Positions 27,760 to 51,930 of a stretch of DNA of 64,000 nt are shown in pieces. Location: positions 1 to 64,000 of the forward strand of contig JAKARW010000002.1 in NCBI GenBank assembly GCA_021819125.1, written 5' to 3'. The DNA is from Pseudomonadota bacterium. Lineage in GTDB: Bacteria; Pseudomonadota; Gammaproteobacteria; Acidiferrobacterales; Acidiferrobacteraceae. The position numbers were made by a program, and so were the translations under genes. Positions within the stretch are counted from its first letter, which is position 1; each line of letters begins with the position of its first letter. The notes beneath the pieces were generated by a model. The model saw only the letters and a list, made by a program, of their open reading frames with translations, made no database searches and was not told the DNA's origin.

Positions 27760-28110
27760 TTACGCAAAGACAATGATGTCCTCGTCTGTTACCACATATT
27801 GGCAAGCGAGCCGCCAGAGCGCCGGATGGGCCGGGATGTCCGCGGCGCGATATTCGGCGTCGGTGAGCTTTCCGGCGCGATAGAGAAGCGTCTTTTCGTC
27901 GGCGCCCAAAATCACCCGCGCCGTGGCACGCTTGCGGTCACGGAACACGACCTTGACGGCACACGCCCCGCATAACCCCTGGCCGCAAGTTTTGTGCGCC
28001 GGCCACGGCACCTCGCGGGCAAGACTCAAAAGTGTCGCGCAGCGCGACGATTCGATATGGATTACACGCGCCACATCGAAGGGGGGAGCAATAAACGTCA
28101 CGCTGCCCAT
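27760..28110 (-). CDS. 2Fe-2S ferredoxin resembling Shethna FeSII nitrogenase-protective protein
   Basis: C-x4-C-x2-C (CGQGLCGAC) and C-terminal GKL...RLACQYVVTDEDIIV, resembling the Azotobacter FeSII C-terminus. Confidence 0.75.
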   Translation of the reverse strand: MGSVTFIAPPFDVARVIHIESSRCATLLSLAREVPWPAHKTCGQGLCGACAVKVVFRDRKRATARVILGADEKTLLYRAGKLTDAEYRAADIPAHPALWRLACQYVVTDEDIIVFA

Positions 28111-33008: not shown

Positions 33009-33887
33009 CTAGGCCGGATTTGCAGCGGACGACGCCCCTTTTGCAAGGCCGCGCGCGTGGGGCACGGTCTTACAATCGGCGAGCGCCTCCGTGAAGGCGG
33101 CAAGATCCAAGGGAACGGGCGTTATCGACTGCTCGGTCAGGAAGCGGGATTCGTTGCGAGTCATGGTTTCTGACAATACCACCCAGTGCGGCCCGCGCGA
33201 GCGCTTCATGATCTGACGCGCGAAGGCCCGCTCGAGCTGGGTCGTAAAGCGGCATCCGAGAAATAGAAAGCCCCGATCCCGGCGCCATTCCTGCACTTGC
33301 GCCGGGATCGGGGTCTGAATGTCGATTTCTGTCAGGACCTCGACAAAATCCGAGTCCGACACGAGAAAGTTGCGCGCAGGATGGAGGGCGCCGAGCGGCT
33401 CGTAGACGAGCGTCGCCCACAGATCGCCCATGGCGCAGTCCGCGCGCGCCCCGTCATGCTGGAAATAATGGACCCACGCGCCATAATGTTCGGCTTGGCT
33501 CACAGCCTGCACGAGACCCCAGTCGGCGCCCCGCGCCTTGAGCGCCGACTGGAGAAGATCGTCGTACCAGGCGTGCACCACGAGCGGGAGACCGGACGCG
33601 GCGAGCCAGTCGTGGAGGGCATTGGGCGTGGCGTTCACGGCGAACGCATCGCGCATCAAGGCGCTCACGGTCTTTCGGTGTTTGAAGTTCTCAATGAACT
33701 GGGCGGCGGCCGTGAGATTCCCCCGAATCTTGTGCGGGACCGCGACCTTCTCGACGAGCCGCGAGACCAGCGCCTCGGGGGTCGCAGGCAGCGGACAGGC
33801 GGGGTCGAGTGCGAGCACCCCTGGGCCTATGTAAGGGATGAGTCGGCCCGCGGTCAAGGCTTCGTGCAAGTCGCTGGGAATGATCAT
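33009..33887 (-). CDS. SIR2-like domain protein in nif cluster
   Basis: LIPYIGPGVLAL (GxG N-terminal motif), VVHAWYDDLLQSAL (NYDdLL-like), WVHYFQHDG, FLFLGCRFTTQLERAF pattern of SIR2-like domains. Confidence 0.7.
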   Translation of the reverse strand: MIIPSDLHEALTAGRLIPYIGPGVLALDPACPLPATPEALVSRLVEKVAVPHKIRGNLTAAAQFIENFKHRKTVSALMRDAFAVNATPNALHDWLAASGLPLVVHAWYDDLLQSALKARGADWGLVQAVSQAEHYGAWVHYFQHDGARADCAMGDLWATLVYEPLGALHPARNFLVSDSDFVEVLTEIDIQTPIPAQVQEWRRDRGFLFLGCRFTTQLERAFARQIMKRSRGPHWVVLSETMTRNESRFLTEQSITPVPLDLAAFTEALADCKTVPHARGLAKGASSAANPA

Positions 33888-33943
33888 AATGGCAAGCTCC
33901 TATTCGGGGTGTTGATGCATGGACGCGCCATGGGCGATCTCCC

Positions 33944-34261
33944 TTAGAGATAGATCGCCGATCCTGCGCCGGCATGGATCGAGGCGTCCTTCAAAGTCTC
34001 GACGATAAGCGCGATATCCTCTTCGGAAAGCTCGGTAGGGAACGGGAACGATGCCACGATCCGCGATCTTGTCGGTGATCCCGCATCCCGCCCCTGAAAA
34101 CCCCCTTTGCCGGCCTTGCGCGTCTCGGTAAAGCGCAGTCGCCCAGGGGCGTGCTTGAGGCCGTCGGCGCGCAGGTCCTGCAATGGCATTACGTGCCAAA
34201 CGGCTAAAGCGCGCCCGGCCGTGATGCCCCGGACTTCGGCTCGAATCTTGAAGTCGGTCAT
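33944..34261 (-). CDS. Conserved-looking hypothetical in nifB operon
   Basis: Complete ORF MTDFKIRAEVRGITAG...GSAIYL between nifT and SIR2-like gene, tightly packed. Confidence 0.6.
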   Translation of the reverse strand: MTDFKIRAEVRGITAGRALAVWHVMPLQDLRADGLKHAPGRLRFTETRKAGKGGFQGRDAGSPTRSRIVASFPFPTELSEEDIALIVETLKDASIHAGAGSAIYL

Positions 34262-34515
34262 GACGATTCGCGCATGGCGATCAGAAGTCCGCTGGCCGCC
34301 GCCGGATCCGGGGTGAGCGAGATACAATGGCCATGCCCATCGATGAGAAAGACATCGGCCGTCGGGGTGACACAAAACGGCCTATGACCGGCCATATCCG
34401 AGGCATCACAGCGCACGAAGGCAAGCCCCGGGAACGCGCGTCGCAACGTGACCAAAGATGGCGGGGCCTTAGTATCAAGAATATCGTGGAGACGGTCCCA
34501 ATCGGATTCATTCAT
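34258..34515 (-). CDS. Hypothetical protein in nifB operon
   Basis: ORF MNESDWDRLHDILDTKAPPSLVTLRRAFPGLAFVRCDASDM; overlaps next start (ATGA). Confidence 0.6.
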   Translation of the reverse strand: MNESDWDRLHDILDTKAPPSLVTLRRAFPGLAFVRCDASDMAGHRPFCVTPTADVFLIDGHGHCISLTPDPAAASGLLIAMRESS

Positions 34516-34520
34516 GGGAT

Positions 34521-34733
34521 TTACACCTCGCCGACGCGTCTTGCCTCGACGGTAATGGGCAGCGCGGTCTCCACCGCCAATCCCGGCAGTTCCAGCTGCC
34601 ATCCGTTGGCAAGCGTCACCCGGCCACCCCACATAGCGGGCCGCTCCATGGCCACGATCGGCTCCTCCAGATCCTTCTTGGCAACGTAGACGGACACGAC
34701 TCCGTCGCGGTTTTTGCGAATCATGACCTTCAT
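34521..34733 (-). CDS. nifT: NifT/FixT
   Basis: MKVMIRKNRDGVVSVYVAKKDLEEPIV. Confidence 0.9.
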   Translation of the reverse strand: MKVMIRKNRDGVVSVYVAKKDLEEPIVAMERPAMWGGRVTLANGWQLELPGLAVETALPITVEARRVGEV

Positions 34734-34734
34734 T

Positions 34735-35922
34735 TCATACCCCCTCGCATCCTTCAAGTGTTCCTCTTACGCCGCGCGCGGCCACCTCGGCCAAGATACC
34801 GGGGAGCAGGGCCAGCACGCGCTGCACGCAGGCCTTTGTGTTATAGCGCCCAAACGAAAACCGGATCGCCCCCAGGGCCGCGCGCCGCTCAAGACCCATG
34901 GCGGTCAACACGTGCGACGGCTCCATGCCGCCTTTTGCGCAGGCCGCGCCTTGAGAGACGGCCACGCCGCGACGGTCAAGGGCCTCCATGATGTGTTCAC
35001 CATCCAAAGTCCCAAAACCGACGTTGCTCGTGTTGGGTAGTCGCGGCGCCCCGGCTCCATGGATCCGAGCCGCGGGAAAGCACTCCCTGATGCCCCGCTC
35101 GAGGTCATCGCGCAGCCCACCCACGCGCCGGGCCTGCAGGTCGAGATCCTGCTGAATAAGCGCACACGCGCTCCCGAGCGCCACGATCGCCGGAAGATTC
35201 TCGGTCCCACCGCGCCAAGCGCGCTCCTGGTGCCCCCACAAAAGCGGCGCGATCTTCAAGCCCTTGCGCAGAAACAACGCCCCCACCCCGGGAGGCGCAT
35301 GCAGCTTATGGCCGGACAAGGACAACAGGCTAATCGGGATCTGCGCCAGATCCACTGGGATCCTGCCTACCGCCTGGACCGCATCGACATGAAGCGCCAC
35401 ACCCGATGCCTGCGCGATCTCGGCGATCTCGGCTATCGGAAACAGCACGCCGGTCTCATTGTTGGCCCACATGACCGTCACAAGCGCGGTATCCGCCGCA
35501 AGCCTTGCCGTTATCGCATGAGCGGCAAGCCTGCCCTCGCCGTCGACCGGGGCATAGGAGACGCGCACCCCCGATCCCTCGAGGTGGCGTAACAGCCTCA
35601 TCGTCGAAGGATGTTCGACTGTGCTTGTCACAATATGTCGTCGATCCGGATGCGCGGCAAGCGTACCGAGGATCGCCATATGGGCGGCTTCGGTGCCGGA
35701 ACTCGTAAATACGATCTCTTGCGGCCGCGCGCTTATGAGCCCCGCCACCTGGGCACGCGCCTCCTCAAGTAACCTTTTGGCACGCATGCCCGCGGCGTGC
35801 TTGCTAGAGGGGTTTCCGATGTGAGGCCCCATCGCCCCCAGCATCGCCATAAGGCACTCGTGCGCTACGGCCCCGGTCGCGTTATTGTCGAGGTAGACAT
35901 CCGCCGATACGTTTTCGGTCAT
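34735..35922 (-). CDS. nifS: Cysteine desulfurase NifS
   Basis: VYLDNNATG, SGHKLHAPPGVGALF PLP lysine region, GAACAKGGMEPSHVL. Confidence 0.93.
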   Translation of the reverse strand: MTENVSADVYLDNNATGAVAHECLMAMLGAMGPHIGNPSSKHAAGMRAKRLLEEARAQVAGLISARPQEIVFTSSGTEAAHMAILGTLAAHPDRRHIVTSTVEHPSTMRLLRHLEGSGVRVSYAPVDGEGRLAAHAITARLAADTALVTVMWANNETGVLFPIAEIAEIAQASGVALHVDAVQAVGRIPVDLAQIPISLLSLSGHKLHAPPGVGALFLRKGLKIAPLLWGHQERAWRGGTENLPAIVALGSACALIQQDLDLQARRVGGLRDDLERGIRECFPAARIHGAGAPRLPNTSNVGFGTLDGEHIMEALDRRGVAVSQGAACAKGGMEPSHVLTAMGLERRAALGAIRFSFGRYNTKACVQRVLALLPGILAEVAARGVRGTLEGCEGV

Positions 35923-35975: not shown

Positions 35976-36266
35976 TTACGTGTCCGCGCCATCGGCCGCG
36001 GTTGTGCTCTCAAGCTCGCGTGCCTTCATGCCCACCCGATAGCCATGGGTCACGAAATCCACGCCATAGATATAGAACTGCTGCAAAAATGTCCCGATAC
36101 TCGTCACATAACCCTCGTCACCCTTCTTCACAAGAATGTCTCCTATGTCCTTGCCAGGAAAGGTGCCGTCGTTGCGCACGGTTTTGCGCGAGCGGACTTT
36201 TTGCCCGTACTCGAATTGGGGAGGCCCATTCAACTCCACGACATCATGGTCTCGGTCAATCTTCAC
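35976..36266 (-). CDS. nifZ: NifZ
   Basis: PPQFEYGQKVRSRKTVRNDGTFPGKDIGDILVKKGDEGYVTSIGTFLQQFYIYGVDF. Confidence 0.92.
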   Translation of the reverse strand: MKIDRDHDVVELNGPPQFEYGQKVRSRKTVRNDGTFPGKDIGDILVKKGDEGYVTSIGTFLQQFYIYGVDFVTHGYRVGMKARELESTTAADGADT

Positions 36267-36311: not shown

Positions 36312-36674
36312 TTAAGGGCCGCGCTTTAGGCGGCTTATATCGACGATGGCCGACCGCGGGTCGGCGGTCGAACAACCGCAATGGCCGCCTTTTGGATCCA
36401 AAACCGTAAAGCCCGAGGAATGAACGGCATCCGAAAAATCCAGGGTGCACCGGTTGAGAATCTCCTCGGTTGCAGGTGGCATATAGATGGTCAGATCCTC
36501 GTACTTTGTTGTCACATCACCATGGGATCCAAAGGCCTCGACACTGAACTCGACACTCGTCCCCGAACATCCGTGAGGGGTCGCCAGCAACCGGATCCCG
36601 GATGTCGGGTGGCCGCTCATTCGCAACATACGGCGCATGAACTTGAGCGCGGATGGCGTAATCGTCATGCACAT
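36312..36674 (-). CDS. HesB/IscA-like Fe-S assembly protein
   Basis: MTITPSALKFMRRMLR ... GIRLLATPHGCSGTSVEF ... GGHCGCST. Confidence 0.8.
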   Translation of the reverse strand: MCMTITPSALKFMRRMLRMSGHPTSGIRLLATPHGCSGTSVEFSVEAFGSHGDVTTKYEDLTIYMPPATEEILNRCTLDFSDAVHSSGFTVLDPKGGHCGCSTADPRSAIVDISRLKRGP

Positions 36675-36692: not shown

Positions 36693-36911
36693 TTAAGCCT
36701 GATAACGCGCGACGCTTGAGTCGACCACGCAAGTGTTTTCGACCGGGCACACCGCCACGCATTGAGGGTCATCGAAATACCCAATGCACTCCGTGCACTT
36801 TTCCGGCTTTATGATGTATGTGCCATTTTTTTCGCGGATGGCGTTGTTCGGACATTCGGGCTCGCAGGCCGAGCAGGCGGTGCATTGCGAGCTTATGATC
36901 TTGTATGGCAT
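36693..36911 (-). CDS. fdxN: Nif 2[4Fe-4S] ferredoxin
   Basis: [39 protein letters not shown]; follows nifB. Confidence 0.9.
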
Positions 36912-36949: not shown

Positions 36950-38500
36950 TTAGGCGGCGACGTAGGCCCCCTGGCGGATAGCGGCGTCACCCTTTGGCAA
37001 ATGCGTAATCTCGCCTTTTTCGACCCGGTCGATGTAGGTTTTGTAGTAGGCAATGGCCGCGGCATCTATAAACTCATGGGCGCATGAATCGACCGGCTCT
37101 ATGCCCGCCTGTTTCAGGGTGGCTTGTGGGCAACCGCCGATCTTGGCGACGAGCACCGCCGTGCAATCGTTCAGTGCGCGGATGATGGTGGGGAGGGTAT
37201 CTTCCTCGCCGTAGCCGCCCTCACAATACAGATCGACGCGCCGATGGCCGACGAACTTGGCACCTAAAGCGCTCACCTCGTAGATCTGAAACTCCTTGGC
37301 ATGTCCGAAATGCTCGTTTACGCGCCCTTCGCCCTTAGTGGCCACCGCCACCAGGATCGCAATATCGGCACCGCGTCCGCGTAAACTTTCAAGTTCAGCC
37401 TCTTTGGCCGCGAGCTTCTCGTTTCTCTTGTCCTCAACCGCGGCCTGGTAGGCGCGCCGCGCCGCGCCGTCGTAGGCAAGCTCGCTTTCCATGACCTTCT
37501 CGGTGGTGAACTCAGACGACCGATCCTCGCCCAGAAGGCCTACGGCATCCGCCCGGCACTGCCGACAATGCCGCATCATGTTCATCTGCCCCTCGCAGCG
37601 GTCTTGCAGGGCCTTGAGCTCTTGCGCGGTGGGCCCGCGAACCCCAGTGAGACCGAACACCGTTCCATGTTCGGGCGCGGATATGAGCGGCATAATGTTG
37701 TGCAGAAAGGCCCCACGCGATTTCACGGCTTTGTTGACCTCGACCAAATGCCGATCGTTGACCCCCGGGATCATGACTGAGTTGACCTTGCAGAGAATTC
37801 CGCGCTCGGTCAGCATCTCGAGGCCCTGCATCTGGCGCTCGTGAAGGATCTGGGCCGCATCACGCCCCGTGTGGCGCTTATGCTGGTAATAGATCCAGGG
37901 GTAGATCCGGGCGCCGATGTCGGGGTCCACCATGTTGATGGTGATGGTCACGTGGTCGACATTGAGGTCTTTGATCCGGTCGACGTAGTCGGGCAACGCC
38001 AAGCCATTGGTGGATAGGCAGAGCTTGATATCGGGGGCCTCGCGGGCGATGAGCTCGAAGGTCTTAAATGTCTTTTCGGGATTGGCGAGCGGGTCTCCCG
38101 GCCCGGCGATGCCAAGAACCGTCATCTGCGGAATGGCGCTTGCCACGGCAAGGGTCTTGCGCGCGGCCTGTTCAGGAGTCAAGCGCTCGCTCACAACGCC
38201 CGGGCGCGATTCGTTAGCGCAATCGTATTTACGATTGCAGTAGTTGCACTGGATGTTACAGGCGGGTGCCACCGCCACATGCATGCGCGCATAGTGATGG
38301 TGGGCCTCCTCGCTGTAACAGGGGTGGTTTTTGATTTTTTCCCAGACGCCCGGCGCCATATCCGCGGGCGCCATGGATGATCCGCAGCTGGCCTTGCCAG
38401 AGCCGCCCGCGGACCCGCACCCCTTATGTTCAAAGATCGCCCGAGCGCTTACACTTAAAGGGGCTCGCGCTCGCCGCTCATCCAAATCTTTCGACTCCAT
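36950..38500 (-). CDS. nifB: FeMo-cofactor biosynthesis radical SAM protein NifB
   Basis: [30 protein letters not shown]-terminal NifX-like domain; start at MESKDL. Confidence 0.96.
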
Positions 38501-38582
38501 AAAAAGGCTCCTTTGAATGGGAACGAAAACCGCAATCGCCACGGCCCCGCTCTTTATGATGCGGTCGATTGACCTATCCCTC

Positions 38583-38598
38583 AGCAAACGCCGTGCCA
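38583..38598 (-). promoter_or_regulatory. Sigma54 promoter of nifB: TGGCAC-GGCGT-TTGCT
   Basis: Exact match to -24/-12 consensus on minus strand. Confidence 0.92.
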
Positions 38599-38661
38599 GA
38601 GGCGCTTGCCGCCAATAACAGCGCGGTGGCGCGGCGCGACACCTCATACCAAAGATATGTG

Positions 38662-38677
38662 TGTCGTGTTAGCGACA
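38662..38677. promoter_or_regulatory. NifA UAS TGTCGTGTTAGCGACA between divergent nifB and IscA-like gene
   Basis: TGT-N10-ACA. Confidence 0.88.
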
Positions 38678-45462: not shown

Positions 45463-45478
45463 GGCAAATCCCGTGCCA
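45463..45478 (-). promoter_or_regulatory. Sigma54 promoter of iscU-type gene: TGGCAC-GGGAT-TTGCC
   Basis: -24/-12 match on minus strand. Confidence 0.85.
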
Positions 45479-45510: not shown

Positions 45511-45526
45511 TGTCGGCTCATCGACA
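45511..45526. promoter_or_regulatory. NifA UAS TGTCGGCTCATCGACA
   Basis: TGT-N10-ACA. Confidence 0.82.
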
Positions 45527-51914: not shown

Positions 51915-51930
51915 GGCAATAGTCGTGCCA
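51915..51930 (-). promoter_or_regulatory. Sigma54 promoter of dsrE-tusA-sqr operon: TGGCAC-GACTA-TTGCC
   Basis: -24/-12 match on minus strand about 60 bp upstream of the dsrE-like start. Confidence 0.85.

Follow-up and report, generated by a model that had tools for sequence, protein, structure and literature searches.

A gene for a sirtuin-like protein closes a nitrogen fixation operon in the stretch of 64,000 nucleotides analysed here (the window), raising the question of whether it encodes an NADase, like its relatives in antiphage defence, or a protein that serves nitrogenase in another way. A preliminary description, made from the sequence alone, had placed a SIR2-like protein and two small unknown proteins at the end of the nifB operon; all three open reading frames are present, all on the minus strand, as are the SIR2-like motifs that it quoted. 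The operon runs from nifB through fdxN, a HesB/IscA-type gene, nifZ, nifS, nifT, a DUF6129 gene and a 318-nt ORF to the SIR2 gene, which comes last:

33009-33887, minus strand: nif-linked SIR2_2 protein of clade A, 292 aa (PF13289, 1e-14; AF2 model; motifs in 93 relatives)
33944-34261, minus strand: DegT/DnrJ/EryC1/StrS aminotransferase pseudogene, 318-nt ORF, 105 aa (blast to L062 and L064)
34258-34515, minus strand: DUF6129 protein, 258 nt, 85 aa, neighbour of nifT (PF19624, 26.3 bits against a cut-off of 23.6)
34521-34757, minus strand: nifT (TIGR02934, 2.6e-31; PF06988)
34735-35922, minus strand: nifS-type cysteine desulfurase (PF00266, 1.4e-70; TIGR03402 is the top model, under its equivalog cut-off)
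35976-36266, minus strand: nifZ (PF04319, 1.4e-33)
36312-36674, minus strand: HesB/IscA-type protein (PF01521, 5.4e-6)
36693-36911, minus strand: fdxN-type 4Fe-4S ferredoxin (ORF; homologues in 71/80 related loci)
36950-38647, minus strand: nifB ORF (homologues in 67/80 loci; the true start being internal and downstream of the sigma54 site)
38584-38598, minus strand: sigma54 -24/-12 site of the nifB operon, TGGCACGGCGTTTGC (exact pattern match)
38662-38677, no strand assigned: NifA-type upstream site, TGTCGTGTTAGCGACA, TGT-N10-ACA (pattern match)

As NifQ, NifX with its DUF269 partner, NifENDKH, NifV, NifU and FixABCX are also encoded within the window, besides the nifB operon, it is a full nif island. 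The control by NifA that had been proposed for the operon agrees with the sequence patterns, since a perfect sigma54 site and a TGT-N10-ACA site both precede nifB, predicting that the operon belongs to the NifA/sigma54 regulon. The pattern search found no further sigma54 match between the site at 38584-38598 and the nifH promoter region, the next sigma54-like match downstream of the nifB operon site being that of nifH. Two more perfect sigma54-type sites lie elsewhere in the window, at 45464-45478 (minus strand), near a NifU_N ORF and with TGT-N10-ACA sites close by at 45511 and 45551, and at 51916-51930 (minus strand), without a clear nif gene behind it. A small ORF at 27760-28110 (minus strand), between nifK and nifE, matches 2Fe-2S ferredoxin-type neighbours in related nif clusters.

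The two small ORFs exist, but the description of both as unknown proteins did not survive comparison with related loci. One is DUF6129 (PF19624), a conserved nif gene that recurs in 69 of the 80 related loci. No PDB fold match was found for its AF2 model (pLDDT 87.5), no paper on DUF6129 was found in the literature search, and no NCBIfam model matched it, the SIR2 protein or the product of the 318-nt ORF. The latter was ruled out as a genuine small protein, being a two-frame remnant of an aminotransferase gene: the closest relatives of the locus (L062 and L064, with SIR2 proteins ~74% identical) carry a full-length DegT/DnrJ/EryC1/StrS gene in its place, of which the window retains the initial residues and the C-terminus, split over two frames, with an internal deletion of ~800 bp plus a frameshift. 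No intact close copy of this DegT-type aminotransferase was found elsewhere in the window's genome. Across related loci DegT is common (67/80), and it lies directly upstream of SIR2 in 26. In many nifB operons (L031-L042, L062-L141), a conserved block separates DUF6129 from SIR2, consisting of the genes for the aminotransferase, an unnamed protein of ~93 aa and a 2Fe-2S ferredoxin. A minimal recurrent context is nifZ-nifT-(DUF6129)-SIR2, found without DegT or an adjacent draT in Rhizobium, Rhodopseudomonas and some MAGs labelled as Acidobacteria. Although the adjoining DegT gene has decayed, the window's SIR2 gene is intact and under purifying selection, with differences from its relatives mainly at silent sites (NG86 dN/dS of 0.16-0.25 against L062 and L064).

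The SIR2 protein had been judged closer to the NADases of defence systems than to deacetylases, and as a statement of kinship this stands. The search against SIR2 families placed it well above the gathering cut-off of SIR2_2 (PF13289; 55.3 bits against 24.5, E=1e-14), the only one of the Pfam SIR2 models to match, and found no classical sirtuin domain of the CobB type. Structure prediction gave a confident SIR2 Rossmann-type fold (AF2, pLDDT 90.3), for which the best PDB matches are the antiphage NADases ThsA, DSR2 and KomC (E about 1e-8, TM about 0.6); at the level of sequence, the family profile matches KomC (4e-6) and ThsA (3e-5). Fold and Pfam family are therefore shared with these proteins, and KomC, at 264 aa, is also similar in size and consists of one SIR2 domain. 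However, the nif-linked proteins differ from all three in a broken catalytic dyad, in a glycine loop altered from GAGxS to GPGV, in a unique invariant EVLTEIDIQTPIP loop, and in their setting, a nif operon without a defence partner or sensor domain.

This setting is highly consistent. At least 561 relatives were identified among 84,980 species genomes, and the neighbourhoods of the best 80 were read: all lie inside nif clusters, each preceded by a nif operon gene on the same strand. In a survey of the window's class, strong matches were found in 28 of 369 genomes, comprising 27 of the 32 with nifD versus one of the 337 others (Fisher p 8e-35, a figure that ignores kinship of genomes); this 28th match (G079) is adjoined by nifH at a contig edge, leaving none in the remaining 336. 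A phylum-wide sample contained 17 genomes with a match, of which 15 have nifD, one (G603) has a nif cluster, and one (G425) was assigned to neither. The conserved linkage that had been anticipated is thus strong, and confinement to nif is near-absolute across Gamma-, Beta- and Alphaproteobacteria. It extends to rhizobial symbiotic plasmids, with 75 plasmid records containing a match; on Rhizobium etli p42d, the SIR2 gene closes a nifB-fdxN-nifZ-nifT run. Linkage does not equate to necessity, as only 15 of 41 nifD-positive genomes in the phylum sample carry the gene, and those lacking it (26 of 41 there, 5 of 32 in the class) indicate that nitrogen fixation does not generally require it. A Bradyrhizobium-like genome (G551) carries two copies, one a full clade A gene and the other interrupted and lying beside fragments of nifT and nifS (C125, C107; L222, L223).

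The family divides into two clades. Clade A, to which the window belongs, comprises the hits of 45-64% identity and closes the nifB operon; the hits of 23-31% identity make up clade B, which lies beside nifH, divergent from nifHDK. Each has its own signature (SD[SA]D[FY]VEVLTEIDIQTP in A, SDADYVDYITELMGG in B), by which, together with its nif linkage, the window's protein is assigned to the nif-linked SIR2 proteins, and the two are sister groups with support of 97/91 in a tree with few, long-branched outgroups. The class survey detected clade A in nine and clade B in 18 of the 32 nifD-positive genomes, never both in one genome, which by simple counting that ignores kinship has a probability of about 7e-5. 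The clades' mutual exclusion is compatible with their being alternative forms of a single function. Seven genomes have draT immediately upstream of the clade B gene, in the same orientation. Clade B clusters (L043-L061) also often contain a hemerythrin-domain gene after SIR2, giving the order draT-SIR2B-hemerythrin beside nifH, with draG further on.

Kinship to the defence proteins does not extend to their catalytic residues. The Asn of the dyad (TTNYD) aligns with Trp107 (HAWYD) of the window's protein in both the DSR2 and ThsA alignments, and the position of the His corresponds to Leu165 (YEPLGA) when aligned to the nearest outgroup, L030 (YKMHGG). Among 93 clade A sequences, Trp107 and Asp109 are invariant (93/93 each) and Tyr108 nearly so (91/93), whereas the His is replaced by Leu, Ile, Trp or others in 92/93 and kept in one. 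A further, mostly alphaproteobacterial set of clade A proteins includes five with the His, each with Trp at the Asn position. Hence clade A retains the aromatic residue and the Asp after the Asn position, but not the Asn itself. Clade B shows the reverse loss, retaining the Asn and Asp of the motif (DINRD-type, Asn in 19/19) with the His changed to Met or Leu in all. No sequence of either clade has both residues together. This loss is specific to the nif family: where some of these genomes encode further SIR2_2 proteins, those retain TTN[YF]D, and several of them also HG. In SPARSA, N142A and H186A each abolish activity; N142 is needed for hydrolysis, while F143 and D144, which are also needed, were assigned by the authors to NAD binding (PMC10781750). 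In DSR2, N133A and H171A abolish NADase activity (PMC11290490). Therefore the NADase activity implied by the likeness to defence proteins is unsupported, as the dyad that SIR2 NADases need is broken throughout. Recruitment of SIR2_2 proteins to a role outside defence has a likeness in the vertebrate FAM118A/B, although in FAM118s the dyad is complete and needed (PMC12700824).

DraT modifies nitrogenase using NAD, and the preliminary description had tied the protein's role to the lack of visible draT and draG in the window. The absence itself is real: the DRAT domain (PF07357) was not found anywhere in the window's genome by a search that was positive in 19 other genomes, and the one ADP-ribosylglycohydrolase encoded elsewhere in the genome may or may not be DraG. 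The proposed tie was not borne out, as draT coexists with SIR2 in 3/9 clade A and 10/19 clade B genomes, often directly before the clade B gene, leaving 6/9 and 9/19 respectively with SIR2 but no draT. Thus, of the two associations suggested for a survey of nif clusters, that with a small ORF held in the case of DUF6129, while absence of draTG is no rule. Either draT or draG is near the SIR2 gene in about 10/80 loci, and SIR2 and draT were not associated among nifD-positive genomes (Fisher p=0.34). The idea that SIR2 replaces draTG was accordingly rejected. Five nifD-positive genomes of the class lack SIR2 (G057, G068, G177, G194, G322), and four of these very few genomes have draT. With draT both present and absent across genomes with SIR2, and in four of the five without it, the family neither substitutes for draTG nor depends on it. 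The likeness is one of position, both being linked to nitrogenase and clade B genes often lying right behind draT, as the SIR2 protein is not homologous to DraT or DraG, and is often present without draT.

The most likely reading, to be held tentatively, is of an NAD-binding, hydrolysis-dead accessory or regulatory protein of nitrogenase. It would be a SIR2_2 protein dedicated to nitrogenase, co-produced with NifB, NifZ and NifT under NifA/sigma54 control. Having lost the Asn-His dyad, it should neither hydrolyse NAD nor deacylate proteins by the known route. Its Rossmann cleft may still bind NAD(H) or an ADP-ribosyl nucleotide, the aromatic-Asp pair being kept, and the invariant VEVLTEIDIQTPIP loop might attach the protein to a component of nitrogenase or to a maturation factor, so that the assembly or activity of nitrogenase would be adjusted to NAD or redox state; NAD binding, docking partner and regulatory role are what we infer. 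The loop, SDSDFVEVLTEIDIQTPIP at residues 177-195 of the window's protein, contains the most conserved stretch of the family, SDSD[FY]VEVLTEIDIQTPIP, which is also the least confidently modelled (pLDDT about 49). This low score would suit a loop that takes on order only when a partner binds, but may reflect nothing more than missing covariation; with a pLDDT near 49, the AF2 model says nothing on the loop's role. Some details sit uneasily with a hydrolysis-dead protein: some alphaproteobacterial clade A members have a His at the dyad position, and many conserved charged residues (E66, H70, R71, H134, D178, D180, E183, E187, D189, K228, R229) could make up an active site invented anew. A more specific proposal, rather doubtful as it stands, is that a catalytically silent, nif-wide sirtuin senses NAD(H) and switches or protects nitrogenase, independently of DraT in many clade A genomes and alongside it in many clade B genomes.

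These same features divide the alternatives. A maturation or protection factor, in which the SIR2 fold serves only as a scaffold for binding proteins and not NAD, and which works with NifZ and NifT on the MoFe-protein or cofactor assembly, would suit the recurrent minimal nifZ-nifT-(DUF6129)-SIR2 context, the lost dyad and the altered GxG loop, since the change to GPGV could weaken NAD binding; it is nevertheless unlikely, given that clade A keeps the NAD-contacting Tyr-Asp pair, clade B keeps the Asn and Asp, and clade B is coupled to draT. Nor does it appear probable that the protein is an enzyme whose active site has been rewired, with nitrogenase proteins as targets of a deacylase, ADP-ribosyl transferase or NAD glycohydrolase activity, because the dyad is never complete, and single Ala mutants of either residue kill activity in SPARSA and DSR2. 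The attractions of this reading are the dense conservation of charged residues, the His kept in some alphaproteobacterial members, the Asn kept in clade B, and the acetylation of Nif proteins in Zymomonas (PMC8600466). The frequency of DegT, and its position directly upstream in 26 loci, could instead point to a metabolic partner of this aminotransferase and of the neighbouring ferredoxin and ~93-aa protein, all taking part in a small pathway of biosynthesis or modification that serves nitrogenase. Yet in the window DegT is a pseudogene beside an intact SIR2 gene with mostly silent changes, and Rhizobium, Rhodopseudomonas and clade B have no DegT alongside, making this quite improbable. Least credible is a phage-defence NADase (Thoeris, DSR or Kom-like) in a nif operon by chance, which is strongly disfavoured: although KomC, ThsA and DSR2 are the nearest solved structures, the dyad is gone, nif confinement is near-absolute, and the PADLOC match is weak and partial (9e-4 over 81 residues). 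The protein is a single domain with nif neighbours in 80/80 loci, and neither a sensor domain nor a partner gene of defence was found; with the defence context absent and the dyad lost, the NADase or defence reading was rejected.

Individual members have been encountered before. In Rhodobacter capsulatus, Rcc03262, a SIR2 protein beside NifT, was detected in the wild type but not in a nifA mutant (PMC6925177). ZMO1821 of Zymomonas is upregulated under N2 fixation, and its authors suggested a deacetylase (PMC8600466); PST_1325 of P. stutzeri lies beside nifH (PMC11332353), and a SIR2 family protein is mentioned in the nif cluster of Rhodovulum (PMC9412634). These are probably the same family, judged by position beside nifT or nifH, the sequences not having been compared. 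The single annotations read hypothetical or presumed deacetylase, and the papers found do not describe the family-wide linkage, the clade split or the loss of the dyad. Nor do they contain a functional test of a nif-linked SIR2 protein, although the search was mostly outside subscription journals, and a study may exist elsewhere. Most sampled nif-positive genomes of a large proteobacterial class, and rhizobial symbiotic plasmids too, thus carry a gene that is without a name in the papers found, and whose product has been presumed a deacetylase despite the loss of the catalytic pair. The preferred reading of an NAD-binding, hydrolysis-dead protein would, if true, represent a sirtuin recruited from catalysis into nitrogen metabolism, and if NAD state is linked to nitrogenase, it would offer an extra control layer for engineered nitrogen fixation systems. 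A second, weak SIR2_2 match (26 bits) occurs in a 376-aa frame on the same contig, outside the window (G000:C7:74879-75034).
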